From contig JAHHHZ010000011.1 in the NCBI GenBank assembly GCA_019359095.1, positions 186,001 through 250,000 of the forward strand: a DNA stretch of 64,000 nt. Direction: 5' to 3'. The DNA comes from Pleurocapsa minor HA4230-MV1 (GTDB lineage Bacteria > Cyanobacteriota > Cyanobacteriia > Cyanobacteriales > Xenococcaceae). How positions within the stretch are numbered: position 1 is the first letter of the stretch; every line of letters begins with the position of its first letter. The position numbers were made by a program, and so were the translations under genes. Below are positions 47,030 through 54,019 of the stretch, piece by piece. Under the pieces are notes generated by a model that was given only the letters and a program-made list of their open reading frames with translations, was not told the origin of the DNA and searched no databases.

Positions 47030-47090
47030 GTTAGATCAAAATATAGCAGTCCTATTTGATTCATGAAACTACATTGATTGGTTTTTAGGT

Positions 47091-47205
47091 AGTCCTAAAG
47101 GACGACGCGTAGCTAGTCCTAAAGGATAAGCTTCGCAAATGAGACCGAAGGGAATCCTTTAGGGCTTTAGCATAAGCTTCGTGACCGTAGGAAATCCTTT
47201 AGGGC
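47091..47205. repeat. Interspersed repeat, long inverted copy with internal duplication
   Basis: The reverse complement of this stretch follows the 39002-39070 copy but carries about 48 extra bases that repeat CCCTAAAGGATTCCC...GAAGCTTA. Fills part of the 47030-47516 gap. Confidence 0.75.
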
Positions 47206-47319
47206 ATATAGGTAGTAGAAATTTCTCATTTCATTTAGGATTGCTATGTGATATTTATATATAAAATCTTTGCTCTTTTGCTCCTTTGCGCCTTAGCGTC
47301 TTGGCGCGAGTGTAGTAGT

Positions 47320-47394
47320 GTAGGTTGGGTTGAGGCACGAAACCCAACGATTAAAAGATTTTGTTGGGTTTCACTATCGTTCTACCCAACCTAC
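47320..47394. repeat. 75-bp hairpin repeat, copy 1
   Basis: Ends GTAGGTTGGGT and ACCCAACCTAC (11-bp inverted), with inner arms AAACCCAAC and GTTGGGTTT. Same length as copy 2 at 54344-54418. On both sides are tracts like CTTTGCGCCTTAGCGTC and CTTGGCGCGAG, also repeated within the gap. No gene is seen in 47030-47516. Confidence 0.9.
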
Positions 47395-47516
47395 CAAGTC
47401 TAAGCGGGATCAACGCCTTTGCGTCTTTGTCCTAAAGGATTAGCTTCGCGTCCGTCTTGGCGCGAGTTTTAATTAAAATTGTCAAAACGGACTTCATCTG
47501 ACCTATTTCTAGAACA

Positions 47517-50114
47517 CTAACGTTTTTGCGACACAACCAAGCAACGTTTTAATTCTTTAGCTAATGTTTCTACATAAGGTTCTTTTAAAATTCCAAAATG
47601 ATCTCCAGGAATATAAATAATTTCTAATCCTCCAGTCACTAAATTACCCCAGCCGAATTGATCTTCAAAGTCGCCAAATGCTGACATCACCTCATACTCT
47701 TCCATGGCTTTAAATACAGTGACCTTACCTGAATATGTCTGGGGAATATAATTTTGTTGTGCTTCCAAATATATTTGGGGAACATGGTTTAAGCGAGTCT
47801 CTTGTTTCAGCTTGAGAAATTTATTTATCTTGGTCAATTTTGAACATAGATACTTAACAGGAGAGTGGCAAAATTTACGTAAATGAGTCAACAATCTCTT
47901 AGGCAGAGGATATATCGTATAAGCCTTGGGATCCCAAGTATCGAATAAAGCTAGAAGAGCCACTTCTTCACCTTGAGCTTGAAGTTGTTGAGCAGCTTCA
48001 AAAGCTACCATCCCACCAAAAGATAAACCGCCTAGATAGTATGGCCCTTGAGGCTGAAGAGTCTTGATTTCTTGAATGTAGAGAGCTACTAAATCTGCAA
48101 CCTGCTCTAACCAATGCTCAGAATCATCAATCATTTCTATTGCCAAGCCATAGACTGGTTGATCTTCACCTAACTGAGATGATAGAGGATAATAAATACC
48201 AATACCTTGAAATAAGAACAGGGGCGGTTTTGTTCCTTTTGGTTGAATGGGCGCTAATGTAGAGCAAGGTTTTTTATTTTCTTGCTGCTCTAGGAAACTA
48301 GCTTGTTGTTCGATAGTGGACATTTGAAAGACCATGCCAAAAGGTAACTCGATCGCAAAAGTTTGTTCAAGCTGATTAGATAAGGTGACAGCTAATAGGG
48401 AATGTCCGCCTAAATAGAAGAAGTTATCGTTAATACTAATAGACTCAAGACCTAAAACCTCTTGCCAAATAGTAGCTAGTTGCTGTTCAGTCGCTGTTCG
48501 GGGAGCAATCTTTATTTGGTTATCTACTGGAAGTGGGAGAGCAGATAAGGCACGACGATCTACTTTGCCATTGAGGTTGAGAGGAAATTCGGCAACAAAA
48601 GTAAAACAAGACGGAATCATATATTGGGGTAAAGTTGTCTGGAGAAAATTTCGCAACTCCTGGGATGCAATCAGCTCGTTTTGAGCAATTAGATAGGCGA
48701 TTAACTGCTTTTCCCCTAATCGATCTTCTTTGGCTATTACTATACAGTCACTTATAGCTGGATGCAGGCTAAGACAAGATTCAATTTCCCCCAATTCAAC
48801 CCGCATTCCGCGAATTTGGACTTGATTATCCTCCCTTCCTAACATTTGTAAGTCGCCTTGAGGGTTTAAGCGACCAAGATCTCCTGTACGATAAAAACGA
48901 TCGCCATCTAGCAGAATGTATTTTTCTTCAGTTAGGCTGGGTAGATTGAGGTAACCCTGAGTAACACCTTGACCAGAGAAATAAATCTCACCCTTAACGC
49001 CAACAGGTACAATTCTTTGCTGCCGATCTAATACTCGTAGCTGAACGTTATTGAAAGGCTTGCCAACCAGAGTTTGCTCAATCTCAAGATCTTTAGGTAC
49101 AAAATAGCTACAGCCCATACAACTAATTTCACTTGAGCCATAAATAGCGTATACTTGCGCCTGAGTAAATGTTTTATTTAATCGGTTGAGTATTGCAGCG
49201 GGAATCATATCCCCACCAGAAGAAGCGTGCTTGACATGCTTAAATCGCTCCAATTCTTGAACTCGATCGAGATAATCAAGCAACATTTTTAACAGACTAG
49301 GGCTTAAATGAAAGAAACTCGATCGCTCTATTGCTTTTGCTAGTAAGTTTGGCTCAAGTAATTGCTTGAGAGTGATAATATTTACTCGTCCACCACAGAC
49401 TAGAGGTAACAACAGCATCAAAAGGCTGATACTAAAGGTAAATCGCGCAGCAGCTAAAAAACTATCTTCGACACCAAAACAGTATTTTTCTTGGGCTGCA
49501 AAAATATAATGAATTAGATTACTATGAGACGAAACCACACCCTTCGGTGTCCCAGTCGTACCAGAGGTAAAGAAGATGTGGGATACACTATCAGGGGAAC
49601 AAAAATAATCGAGATTAGAGCGATCGCCTGATGATAAATCTAATCTAAACAGATTTATAGTATTAAGATCGAAGTTATCATCAATTTCCCTAAAGCGATC
49701 GCTGGCACAAACAATAGCTACGGGTGCTACTTGTTCGATCATAGTTTTAATTCTGCCTAAAGGATACTCTGTATCTATAGGGACGTATACCGCATTGATT
49801 TTATGAATTGCCAGGATCGCAATTAAAATTTCTAACCCAGGATCGATAAATACCGCCACGCAGTCTTGAGGTTTTACATTCTGCGCAATTAAATAGTTGG
49901 CTAATTGATTCGCTTGAGCATTTAATTCTCCATAGCTGATTTGTACCTCGCCAAAAGTGACAGCTATCGACTCGGGAAACTCTTGGGCATACCGTTCAAA
50001 ATGACGATAGATCGGCAGATTACTATAACCACTAGCAAGAGAAGAGCGATCGCTTTTTATTGGAGTACTTGTAATATGTGTTGAAGCTGATAAAGTTACA
50101 AAACTTTGATTCAC
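47517..50114 (-). CDS. Single-module NRPS-like enzyme: adenylation, carrier, thioesterase
   Basis: 865 residues. The A domain (about 35-530) has FTSGTTGTPKG (182-192), YGSSEIS in place of YGPTE, RTGDLGR, the late LGREDNQVQIRGMRVELGEIE and catalytic Lys 517 (NLNGKVDRR). The carrier domain has its pantetheine Ser 572 in FYLGGHSLL. The thioesterase has nucleophile Ser 698 in GLSFGG and His in PGDHFGIL. There is no condensation domain. Core motif A4 reads RFTFSIS (224-230), with Ser 228 where amino-acid-activating domains have Asp. Enzymes of this A-T-TE plan join two aryl-pyruvates to quinones, furanones or lactones. The HPPD gene lies 76 bases upstream on the same strand. Product unknown. Confidence 0.88.
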   Translation of the reverse strand: MNQSFVTLSASTHITSTPIKSDRSSLASGYSNLPIYRHFERYAQEFPESIAVTFGEVQISYGELNAQANQLANYLIAQNVKPQDCVAVFIDPGLEILIAILAIHKINAVYVPIDTEYPLGRIKTMIEQVAPVAIVCASDRFREIDDNFDLNTINLFRLDLSSGDRSNLDYFCSPDSVSHIFFTSGTTGTPKGVVSSHSNLIHYIFAAQEKYCFGVEDSFLAAARFTFSISLLMLLLPLVCGGRVNIITLKQLLEPNLLAKAIERSSFFHLSPSLLKMLLDYLDRVQELERFKHVKHASSGGDMIPAAILNRLNKTFTQAQVYAIYGSSEISCMGCSYFVPKDLEIEQTLVGKPFNNVQLRVLDRQQRIVPVGVKGEIYFSGQGVTQGYLNLPSLTEEKYILLDGDRFYRTGDLGRLNPQGDLQMLGREDNQVQIRGMRVELGEIESCLSLHPAISDCIVIAKEDRLGEKQLIAYLIAQNELIASQELRNFLQTTLPQYMIPSCFTFVAEFPLNLNGKVDRRALSALPLPVDNQIKIAPRTATEQQLATIWQEVLGLESISINDNFFYLGGHSLLAVTLSNQLEQTFAIELPFGMVFQMSTIEQQASFLEQQENKKPCSTLAPIQPKGTKPPLFLFQGIGIYYPLSSQLGEDQPVYGLAIEMIDDSEHWLEQVADLVALYIQEIKTLQPQGPYYLGGLSFGGMVAFEAAQQLQAQGEEVALLALFDTWDPKAYTIYPLPKRLLTHLRKFCHSPVKYLCSKLTKINKFLKLKQETRLNHVPQIYLEAQQNYIPQTYSGKVTVFKAMEEYEVMSAFGDFEDQFGWGNLVTGGLEIIYIPGDHFGILKEPYVETLAKELKRCLVVSQKR

Positions 50115-50190
50115 GTTAATTAATTCCCAAAAGATTTTTAATAAATGCGATTAGGCTCCCCTAAAGGACTAGGTCCGCTTCGCGATCGCT

Positions 50191-51348
50191 CTAAACAGTG
50201 ATGGGAAATTCTTCTTTGATTGGCAAAGATTCGCTGTCAAATAACATGGGGTGTTTGAGTTTAGTTTTGGCTAACTGTTCAAAATCAGGATCAAATTCTC
50301 CCAGAACACCACGACGTATCTGATCGAGTTCAATAGATTCAAATAAAGCCTGAAAATTACCTTCTCCAAAGCCTTTATTACCCTTTCTTTCAATAAACTC
50401 AAAAAAGATTGGCCCGATAATTTCTTTAGTGAAGATTTGGAGTAAAATACCGTCTTCTTTTTTGCCACCATCAATTAAAACTTTTAGTTTTTTGAGAGCA
50501 ATTACATTTTCTTCGTGGCTGGAAATACGTTTATCTATTAATTCGTAATAGCTTGCAGGAGTGTCTTGAAACAAGATTTTTTCTTCTTTGATTTGACCTA
50601 CTACCGAGTAGATATCATGACAACCCAAAGCAATATGTTGAATACCTTCCCCATTGTATTTTTCTAAGAATTCAGCAATCTGCGAAAAGTCGTCTTGAGA
50701 TTCATTTAACGGAAGCCGAATTTTGCCACAGGGACTAATTAAGGCTTTGCTACGTAAACCTGTTTTTTTACCTTTAATATCAAAGAAACGAATTTCTTGA
50801 AAATTGAAAATACATTCATAAAATTTAGCCCAAGCATCCATGTTTCCCTTAAATACATTTTGAGTAACATGATCGATATAAGTAACTTTAGGTTTAGCCA
50901 AAGGAAGCTGACCAGTAGGTTCAAAAAAGCTATCCAAAAATTGTTTAGAAGTCTGGCGATCGATTAAATAAATCTTCGAGCCTCCAACACCTTCAATTGC
51001 AGGCAAGTTATAATCCGAACAAATTACTGCTTTAGCACCACGCTTCACCGCTTCTTGGAGTGCAAAGTTAGAATCTTTGACTCTAAAACTGATACCACAA
51101 ACACCAGAACCATGAATAGACTCAAAAGCAGCAGCATCCGTATCCGCTTCTGCATTGACAATAAATTTCATATTGCCTTGCTCTAGTAAGAAAATGTTTT
51201 TGAGGTGATGACGACCAGTTAAAATAAATCCAAATTTAGTAAAAATATCAATAATTTCTTGAGGGAATTTAGTAGCAAACTCGATAAAATCAAAGCCATT
51301 GATTTGAATCGGATTTCTTGTTTTAAGTGCCTGCTCTTTTTCAATCAT
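50191..51348 (-). CDS. hppD: 4-hydroxyphenylpyruvate dioxygenase
   Basis: 385 residues. Converts 4-hydroxyphenylpyruvate to homogentisate with non-haem iron. Iron ligands are His 160 (YIDHVTQNV), His 238 (EGIQHIAL) and Glu 317 (IFFEFIER). The C-terminal gate GFGEGNFQALFESIE is intact, which favours HPPD over hydroxymandelate synthase. The sequence, e.g. GNMDAWAKFYECIFNFQEIR, resembles gammaproteobacterial HPPD (Legionella and Pseudomonas type). From memory it is unlike the shorter cyanobacterial HPPD used for tocopherol. It is the first gene of a two-gene unit with the A-T-TE enzyme and follows a long AT-rich region. Lateral transfer is likely. Confidence 0.92.
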   Translation of the reverse strand: MIEKEQALKTRNPIQINGFDFIEFATKFPQEIIDIFTKFGFILTGRHHLKNIFLLEQGNMKFIVNAEADTDAAAFESIHGSGVCGISFRVKDSNFALQEAVKRGAKAVICSDYNLPAIEGVGGSKIYLIDRQTSKQFLDSFFEPTGQLPLAKPKVTYIDHVTQNVFKGNMDAWAKFYECIFNFQEIRFFDIKGKKTGLRSKALISPCGKIRLPLNESQDDFSQIAEFLEKYNGEGIQHIALGCHDIYSVVGQIKEEKILFQDTPASYYELIDKRISSHEENVIALKKLKVLIDGGKKEDGILLQIFTKEIIGPIFFEFIERKGNKGFGEGNFQALFESIELDQIRRGVLGEFDPDFEQLAKTKLKHPMLFDSESLPIKEEFPITV

Positions 51349-52105
51349 GATGTAAGTTATTGTTATTTTATTTAATATTTCTGAAATAAATTAATTTTTA
51401 GAGTATTTATATTTATAGGCAGCAAAAAATTTCCAAGAAAATATTACTTTTCTAGTATTTCAGCCTGACTGCCTGAGACAAGTTTCTCTTATCTTTATTA
51501 TGTTATGTATAAATTTTGTTTTTTATGCAAAAAGGCTATTTTGTTATTATGCGATCGCTTAAAAGCGTTGATGAATTGTATCTTAAAAATTCAATTTTTA
51601 TGAAAATACTAGGGTTTATATAAATACGTCACGCAACCAGTATTTGAGCTTGATTGTACTTTTATAATTATCTTTTATAATTATTATTAGCTCTTGATAT
51701 ATTGAAGTAAAATAATTGCTATAGCAAGTAAAAATAGTGATTTTAAGTATTAATTTTATAAATGCTGAATTTACTTAATTTTGCTTCATATGTAATTAAA
51801 TATAGAGTTTATTTAGAATTTTTCAATAGTTTTCGATCATTAATACTAAAATACTAACTAAATATTTGTATTAGATCCAAAACATATTGTCACATTTTTA
51901 AAAATCTTGCTAGATTAAAATAAGATATTCATCAAAAATTTATATTTAGGTAAAGCTATTGTTCTTAGTTGTTTTTTTATCCTGACAGGCGATCGGGAAG
52001 AAATAGGAAAGATTTTCAATCTGAAATGGTAGAATAATCTTTATCGCTTTTCCTACTTCCTACTTCCTACTTCCTATTTCCTACTTCCTATTTCCTACTT
52101 CCTAT
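51349..52105. other. Very AT-rich 757-bp non-coding region upstream of hppD
   Basis: No reading frame or RNA is recognised. The DNA is clearly richer in A and T than the neighbouring genes, with only isolated HIP1-like octamers. It must hold the hppD promoter. Its far end (52050-52104) is a CTTCCTA/CTTCCTATTT array that touches the sdhA stop codon. Confidence 0.6.
52050..52104. repeat. CTTCCTA array at the sdhA stop
   Basis: About seven CTTCCTA or CTATTTC variants, ending two bases from the sdhA stop codon (52106). Confidence 0.85.
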
Positions 52106-54019
52106 TTACTTATAACTACGTTGGGTCAATTCAACATTGTCAAACTCTAATTTTTCTTGGTGTAAGACAGGAGTTTGTTCATCTCCTTGATATTGCCATG
52201 CAGCAACATAAGCATAATCCTCATCATTGCGTTGGGCTTCTCCTTCTGGAGTCTGACATTCTTCGCGAAAGTGCGCGCCACAGGATTCTTCGCGATCTAG
52301 AGCATCTCGCGCCATTAATTCTCCCAACTCTAAGAAATCAGCAACTCTACCCGCAAACTCCAAGTGCTTATTAAAAGTCTGCTTGTCTTGAGGAATTATC
52401 ACATTTGACCAATATTCCTGTCTTAATTCTGCTATTTGGGCGATCGCCTGTTCTAATCCTGAGCGATCGCGAGACATGCCTACTCGATCCCAGAGGATTT
52501 TACCTAGCTGACGATGAAACTCAGTCGCCGTCTTATTACCGTTGATACTCAACAGTTTATTAACTTTAGTATTGACCGTCGCTTCTGCTTCTTCAAAGGC
52601 AGGATGAGTTAACTTTACAGGTGGTAAATCGCTCGTCGCAATATAGTTACCCAAAGTGTAGGGAATGACAAAATAGCCATCAGATAATCCTTGCATCAAG
52701 GCACTAGCACCGAGACGGTTTGCCCCGTGATCGGAAAAATTGGCTTCGCCTAAAACGTGTAAGCCAGGAATAGTACTCATCAGGTTATAGTCTACCCACA
52801 AGCCACCCATAATATAGTGAACGGCGGGATAAATTCGCATCGGGACTTCGTAGGGGTTTTCTCCCGTGATGCGTTGATACATATCGAACAGATTACCGTA
52901 ACGTTCGGCAATTAATTCTTTGCCTAATTTGGCGATCGCATCCCTAAAGTCTAAATATACTGCTAGTCCAGTTTCACCAACGCCTCGACCTTCATCTGTA
53001 ACCTGCTTGGCGTTACGAGAAGCCACATCACGAGGGACAAGATTACCAAAGCTAGGATATCTGGTTTCTAGATAATAATCTCTTTCTGTTTCAGGAATTT
53101 GACTGGGATGGCGCTGATCGCCAGGCTGTTTTGGCACCCATACCCGCCCATCATTGCGTAAGCCTTCACTCATCAAAGTTAACTTAGACTGATACTCTCC
53201 CGACACAGGAATACAGGTAGGATGAATCTGGGTATAGCAAGGATTGGCAAATAAAGCCCCCCGTTTGTAGCATCGCCAAGCAGCCGTGACGTTAGAGTTG
53301 CGGGCATTAGTCGAAAGATAATAGACATTGCTATAGCCCCCAGTACAAAGTAGCACTGCATCTCCTGCGTAGCGTTCAATTTCCCCCGTAATCAGGTTAC
53401 GAACAATAATACCTCGTGCTTTCCCGTCAACTAAGACCAAATCTAGCATTTCTCGACGAGGAAACATTTCTATCTTCCCTTCAGCAATCTGACGAGACAT
53501 GGCACTATATGCCCCTAGTAAAAGTTGTTGTCCTGTTTGCCCTTGAGCGTAAAAGGTACGGGATACCTGCGCCCCACCAAAAGAACGATTGGCTAATAGT
53601 CCGCCATATTCCCGCGCAAAAGGAACACCCTGCGCCACACATTGATCGATAATCTGATTACTAATCTGCGCCAAGCGATGTACATTAGCCTCACGGGAAC
53701 GATAGTCCCCACCCTTGATCGTGTCGTAAAATAACCGCCAGACAGTATCCCCATCATTAGGATAGTTTTTCGCCCCGTTAATGCCTCCTTGAGCAGCGAT
53801 ACTATGGGCGCGACGAGGAGAATCTTGGATGCAAAAACTTTTGACGTTGTAACCTAATTCCGCTAGGGTAGCTGCTGCGGAAGCCCCTGCTAATCCTGTT
53901 CCGACAATTAAGATGGTGTGCTTTTTCTTATTGGCAGGACTGACTAATTTACAGTGATCTTTATAATTGTCCCATTTGTCTTGTAGTCTACCAGCAGGAA
54001 TTTTAGGATCGAGTTTCAT
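52106..54019 (-). CDS. sdhA: Succinate dehydrogenase/fumarate reductase flavoprotein, Bacteroidetes-like type
   Basis: 637 residues. FAD site [23 protein letters not shown]; covalent-FAD His region [20 protein letters not shown]; substrate-site HPTCIP and REYGGL; C-terminal active-site Arg region [13 protein letters not shown]. The length and the [28 protein letters not shown] start are those of the longer SdhA used with a diheme membrane subunit (Bacteroidetes, Bacillus-like) and not of the approximately 575-residue proteobacterial type. SdhB and SdhC are not adjacent. Oxidises succinate, or reduces fumarate, at the membrane. Confidence 0.9.

Follow-up and report, generated by a model that had tools for sequence, protein, structure and literature searches.

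A conserved pairing of a 4-hydroxyphenylpyruvate dioxygenase gene with a single-module synthetase gene in cyanobacteria, a candidate homogentisate-loading pathway

MysE-type enzymes have a layout of adenylation (A), carrier (T), and thioesterase (TE) domains, transfer their substrate to a small acceptor, and attach serine. In quinone synthetases, Val at position 1 of the A-domain code indicates activation of an alpha-keto acid, and in those of fungi position 5 is linked to whether phenylpyruvate or 4-hydroxyphenylpyruvate is taken (PMC10316625). Among cyanobacteria, the scytonemin cluster contains extra aroG and tyrA genes ending at p-hydroxyphenylpyruvate and a glycosyltransferase gene (PMC2726228), and the aeruginosin enzyme AerA has a loading A domain with a predicted arylpyruvate substrate (PMC3252866). 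Here we describe a two-gene unit in a 64,000-nucleotide stretch of Pleurocapsa minor HA4230-MV1 (contig JAHHHZ010000011.1, positions 186,001 to 250,000; hereafter the window), in which a gene for 4-hydroxyphenylpyruvate dioxygenase (HPPD) precedes one for a stand-alone A-T-TE synthetase without a condensation (C) domain, as in AtrA, TdiA, EchA, and RalA; an aryl acid substrate is likely. No published account of an HPPD/A-T-TE pathway was found in the open-access literature, as available in part and mostly outside subscription journals.

The unit had been proposed in an earlier note, made from the DNA letters alone, and its composition was confirmed by coordinates, by the TIGR01263 model for HPPD, and by Pfam for the synthetase. 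A profile built from nine A domains of this kind separates a distinct cyanobacterial A-domain family from other A domains. At E up to 1e-170 the profile listed 30 of the 388 genomes in the class sample, and 26 of these hold a member with scores of 709-982 bits, the 709-bit score being that of a second, split copy; the highest score among the four non-member genomes is 576 bits. The order sample, also of 388 genomes, has 14 with a member, at 692.8 bits and up. Three candidates per genome were scored in both samples, and a low-ranking member may be missed. The union comprises 38 genomes, 30 with the code SI[FL]HSGICMK (HSG) and eight with SI[FL]HFG(L/M)(S/T)LK (HFG), with Ser and Phe, respectively, at position 5. 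No new genome came from the phylum sample (3 of 386 genomes match) or the order of genome G415 (13 of 42), all matches being already known. A first scan of the contigs of named genomes found no relative; a second returned at least 79 loci, of which the code confirms Stenomitos frigidus ULC18 (locus L092) and an uncultured Xenococcaceae (L093) as members, and the remaining 77 show 32-37% identity. Plasmids gave 661 matching records, all below 60% identity, and the highest value among the 15 matches listed is 36.5%.

An HPPD gene lies within 1.1 kb of the synthetase gene in 24 of the 30 HSG genomes, counted by genome, and in two others (G404 and G573) a contig end is close by. No A domain was found near control HPPDs. 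These were 33 loci around other HPPDs, or 26 distinct places once seven duplicates are removed, and for 24 of the 33 the flanks covered only about 1.5 kb. The adjacency described in the earlier note is confirmed as a conserved trait beyond chance and is not peculiar to this genome. The pairing recurs in two dozen sampled cyanobacterial genomes and therefore looks like an uncharacterised natural-product pathway. Three arrangements occur: same strand with HPPD upstream (window, G268, G198, G098, and G531), same strand with HPPD downstream (G273, G193, G187, and G120), and divergent (G415, G435, G535, G520, G462, G562, G389, G427, G491, G359, G557, G502, and G316). One synthetase per locus was taken, which leaves G391 and G417 (HPPD distances 356 and 1075) outside this grouping.

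In a quick tree of 51 HPPDs, the copies of these clusters fall into two distant, starred clades. The first has seven rows, from the window, G268, G198, G273, and G193, and lone copies of G037 and G060; the second holds 18 others. The HPPD of G120, found after the tree, is 77% identical to that of G187. The five synthetases paired with a window-type HPPD form a supported group (99/96) in the careful A-domain tree, beside G187 and G120 and within the HSG clade. A foreign HPPD seems to have replaced an older one where the pairing stayed, because two distant HPPD clades coexist with a window-type subgroup inside the HSG part of the A-domain tree. We take this putative replacement at a kept pairing as the strongest sign of joint function. 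The lone window-type HPPDs of G037 and G060 (L075:8377-9414 and L076:8889-9926) have no synthetase and have the same two neighbour genes as the copy of G193; tblastn found no clear synthetase remnant at these two loci.

The window HPPD scores 358.6 bits against TIGR01263 (cut-off 277), also matches Pfam Glyoxalase_5 and Glyoxalase, and has the H/H/E metal ligands as well as Phe in the GNF motif of the active site. Its nearest solved relative is the Pseudomonas fluorescens enzyme 1cjx (308 bits, against 148 for Streptomyces avermitilis), and the HPPD of the Stenomitos cluster is nearest to S. avermitilis (365 bits, against 147 for P. fluorescens). Hydroxymandelate synthase was considered and rejected because the Phe is kept; Phe rather than Ile or Leu at this position separates HPPD from that enzyme. 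The window HPPD is the predicted source of homogentisate. A second HPPD on another contig of the same genome (G000:C21:196093-197130; L010, L090; TIGR01263 302 bits) is about 30% identical to it and is probably the ordinary copy. Among paired copies, only an HPPD-family protein of G136 (L077:11642-12763), beside an HFG-code synthetase, departs from the Phe; its active site has Ile and Val in place of Phe and Asn. The solved proteins closest to it are still HPPDs (1t47, 314 bits; 2r5v, 211 bits), and it possibly catalyses a different oxygenase reaction.

The reading that we favour, with a little more confidence than doubt, is that the A domain loads homogentisate, which is supplied by the HPPD and released by the TE domain. 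The dedicated HPPD would turn 4-hydroxyphenylpyruvate into homogentisate (2,5-dihydroxyphenylacetate), and the A domain would adenylate this acid and attach it to the carrier domain. Release by the Ser thioesterase may then occur through hydrolysis or through transfer to an acceptor with a hydroxyl or amine group, which would give an ester, lactone, or amide. Relatives combine the same loading unit with a second module, a terminal C domain, or a Cys thioesterase beside a glycosyltransferase. We infer the substrate, release chemistry, and product from the computed domains, motifs, coupling, and supply genes of relatives.

The A domain itself is unlikely to activate an ordinary amino acid, judging from its code SILHSGICMK, in which Ser replaces Asp235 (code position 1) of the amino-acid-activating A domains of nonribosomal peptide synthetases (NRPS); the lack of this Asp is in line with the non-amino-acid substrate proposed earlier. 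Code positions were taken from an alignment with LgrA and follow GrsA numbering, in which position 1 is the amino-binding Asp235. The carrier GGHS motif, the thioesterase elbow GLSFG, and the other motifs inspected are intact, and Pfam gave no Condensation match in the window synthetase. This layout also suits an alternative in which the acid loaded by the A domain is 4-hydroxyphenylpyruvate, or a reduced form of it, and the TE domain couples two units, as in atromentin and ralfuranone synthesis, the HPPD being a side or tailoring step. Such dimerisation would agree with a supply enzyme of the relatives, a T-protein that ends at 4-hydroxyphenylpyruvate, and with the HFG sister group, in which half of the genomes have this supply gene and none a canonical HPPD. 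However, Val at position 1, reported as the sign of keto-acid activation (PMC10316625) and a mark of the arylpyruvate-dimerising type, is absent from the window A domain, the HPPD would use up the substrate, and a C domain follows A-T in 17 of the 40 proteins of the family, a layout that fits a starter unit better than an enzyme that joins two units. We therefore regard dimerisation as unlikely, and the analogy with AtrA and RalA drawn in the earlier note is weakened because that Val is lacking and because two-module and A-T-C relatives exist.

The 40 family proteins, whose layouts were read partly by BLAST, comprise 22 A-T-TE, 15 A-T-C-A-T-TE, two A-T-C without TE (G187 and G120), and one split copy; many begin with a partial C domain. 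The second module has a code of DILQ type, which we take to denote glycine, in 9 of the 15 two-module proteins, and the other six differ. In G391 (L222:4587-7438), a second family synthetase seems split into an A part of 530 amino acids and a T-TE part of 417 amino acids, beside an intact two-module one. The elbow could be read in 37 proteins, and the thioesterase nucleophile is Cys in 22 of them (e.g., L204, L201, and L214) and Ser in 15. A family-2 glycosyltransferase gene lies within 1.2 kb in 14 of the 38 family genomes, and all 14 proteins with such a neighbour have a Cys thioesterase (Fisher p 7e-5, but the sequences are related and the events not independent); the window enzyme has a Ser nucleophile and no adjacent glycosyltransferase. 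The A domains of the window and G268 are 73% identical but the TE domains only 31%, and judged by these values the release part is exchanged around a seemingly constant loading unit.

The same disparity between TE and A domain, and the small size of the window unit compared with many related clusters, could suggest that the two genes are a remnant of an older cluster without a working pathway. We consider this very improbable, since the motifs are intact, the coupling is conserved, and the ratio of nonsynonymous to synonymous substitution rates (dN/dS) is about 0.1 for HPPD and A domain (0.08-0.13 against G268 and G198, with dS of 1.5-3.1, near saturation); these two parts look to be under constraint.

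Supply of 4-hydroxyphenylpyruvate or homogentisate, the theme of the earlier note, recurs in the clusters as predicted HPPD, prephenate dehydrogenase, and DAHP synthase genes. The relatives encode a bifunctional chorismate mutase/prephenate dehydrogenase (NF008400, 279.1 against a cut-off of 273), with the T-protein 2pv7 as nearest solved relative. Traced through its similarity to the Stenomitos gene, with seven copies verified by Pfam, this gene is near the synthetase in 10 of 30 HSG and 4 of 8 HFG genomes; DAHP synthase is nearby in 4 of 30 HSG and none of 8 HFG genomes. Both enzymes point to a supply of 4-hydroxyphenylpyruvate, as predicted from the neighbouring genes. Since TyrA of Synechocystis is an arogenate dehydrogenase (PMC5681985), the special prephenate dehydrogenase in the clusters is meaningful. 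An acid derived from homogentisate or 4-hydroxyphenylpyruvate (e.g., methylated, prenylated, or decarboxylated) by an enzyme encoded elsewhere could also be the substrate, in agreement with a window unit of two genes only and a methyltransferase near the synthetase in G391. This is improbable, as no such enzyme recurs among the examined neighbours and G391 is the only relative with this methyltransferase among the loci tested. Downstream (3') of the glycosyltransferase, a conserved putative lipoprotein of 549-565 amino acids is encoded (L071:9933-11582 and L072:14697-16394), with no Pfam or NCBIfam match for the L071 copy searched. A link to exopolysaccharide, suggested by the glycosyltransferase and lipoprotein in G268 and G198 and by MurJ and a weak Wzy match in G136, was discarded as not general.

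The HFG group has no canonical HPPD beside the synthetase in any of its eight genomes: seven have none and G136 has the variant relative. By row, HPPD is present in 24 and absent from 5 HSG entries, against 1 and 7 for HFG (Fisher p 5e-4, counted without the two contig-edge rows and the split copy of G391), but this p overstates the evidence because the careful A-domain tree needs a single code change and approximately unbiased (AU) tests give no support for two. Two independent switches at position 5, hinted at by another quick tree, were accordingly withdrawn; in the AU test one clade for HFG was not rejected (p 0.358), and a better tree was found with HSG as one clade. The HPPD-less sister group probably loads 4-hydroxyphenylpyruvate, and the pattern fits an ancestor that loaded this acid, with one later switch to homogentisate when HPPD was recruited.

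Several observations weigh against homogentisate loading. The correlation of code and HPPD corresponds to about one evolutionary event, and no HPPD was found in the fetched stretches of four of the 30 HSG genomes (G292, G434, G056, and G234). In the window genome, the best match to the glycosyltransferase of relatives is 32% and that to the T-protein 28% over a short segment, neither of them a close copy. Moreover, we know of no homogentisate-loading A domain, and the code is thus without a precedent to check against.

A wider scenario built on homogentisate loading is put forward tentatively, as possible but short of probable. Homogentisate would be a cyanobacterial NRPS starter, and an ancestral 4-hydroxyphenylpyruvate loader, partly fed by chorismate mutase/prephenate dehydrogenase, would have recruited HPPD once, with its pocket re-tuned from the HFG to the HSG code and its release parts (Ser TE, Cys TE with glycosyltransferase, terminal C domain, or second module) swapped freely. 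By analogy with scytonemin, the product may be an excreted hydroquinone or quinone pigment or a redox compound of the sheath. A link to gloeocapsin, the chemistry of which is disputed (PMC10359912), is a guess only.

The unit consists of two intact minus-strand open reading frames (Table 1), flanked by genes for an asparaginyl-tRNA synthetase and a succinate dehydrogenase-like flavoprotein, named by eye and apparently housekeeping. No further pathway gene was recognised by eye in the open reading frame lists of the window (1-60000, frames of at least 90 or 120 amino acids). Likewise, no scyA-F genes were recognised by eye near the unit in these lists, with no scy sequence or model searched. 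In the gap after the synthetase gene (47070-47470), repeated short stretches like CCTAAAGGA...GCTTCGC were seen by eye, as was a short tandem repeat of about 7 bases (cttccta/ctatttc) at 52045-52107, before the end of the flavoprotein gene.

Table 1. Features of the two-gene unit, in window positions (aa, amino acids).
Feature	Position	Strand	Basis
HPPD, 385 aa, first gene of the unit	50191..51348	-	TIGR01263, solved relatives, active-site residues
Intergenic gap, 76 bp, between the two co-directional genes	50115..50190	-	
A-T-TE synthetase, 865 aa, GTG start	47517..50114	-	Pfam domains (AMP-binding 39-389, AMP-binding_C 443-517, PP-binding 544-608, Thioesterase 640-853)
Adenylation domain, aa 34-525, code SILHSGICMK	48540..50015	-	Pfam and alignment; Ser at the amino-binding Asp position
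Carrier (PP-binding) domain, aa 544-608, GGHS motif from aa 569	48291..48485	-	
Thioesterase domain, aa 640-853; Ser nucleophile in GLSFG (motif from aa 696); His in PGDHFG	47556..48197	-	

Together, the clusters represent a sequence-defined type of pathway that recurs in cyanobacteria and couples a predicted homogentisate-making enzyme to a predicted non-amino-acid A domain, with extra supply genes in the fuller relatives. The HFG group, of the same family with an altered code and no canonical HPPD, is a natural contrast that makes the substrate question testable. If homogentisate loading is true, this acid joins the NRPS starter units, and the gene pair offers a genome handle on aromatic metabolites of cyanobacteria without assigned genes. 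The window synthetase differs from AtrA, TdiA, EchA, and RalA in having Ser for Val at code position 1, an HPPD partner, and two-module and A-T-C relatives. The MysE-type enzyme of shinorine synthesis is likewise a cyanobacterial NRPS-like enzyme beside few genes (PMC3252866), but it attaches an amino acid; the window A domain lacks the amino-binding Asp, and no mycosporine genes were recognised nearby. AerA resembles the window enzyme as a cyanobacterial loading enzyme, but its A domain is followed by an integrated ketoreductase rather than by T-TE. The scytonemin cluster shares its extra supply genes and glycosyltransferase with the fuller relatives, but its gene table, in the available text, shows no NRPS or HPPD (PMC2726228), and the window unit has no adjoining supply genes. 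A further likeness to the quinone synthetases lies in code position 5, the site of substrate choice there (PMC10316625) and the position that differs between the HSG and HFG groups here.

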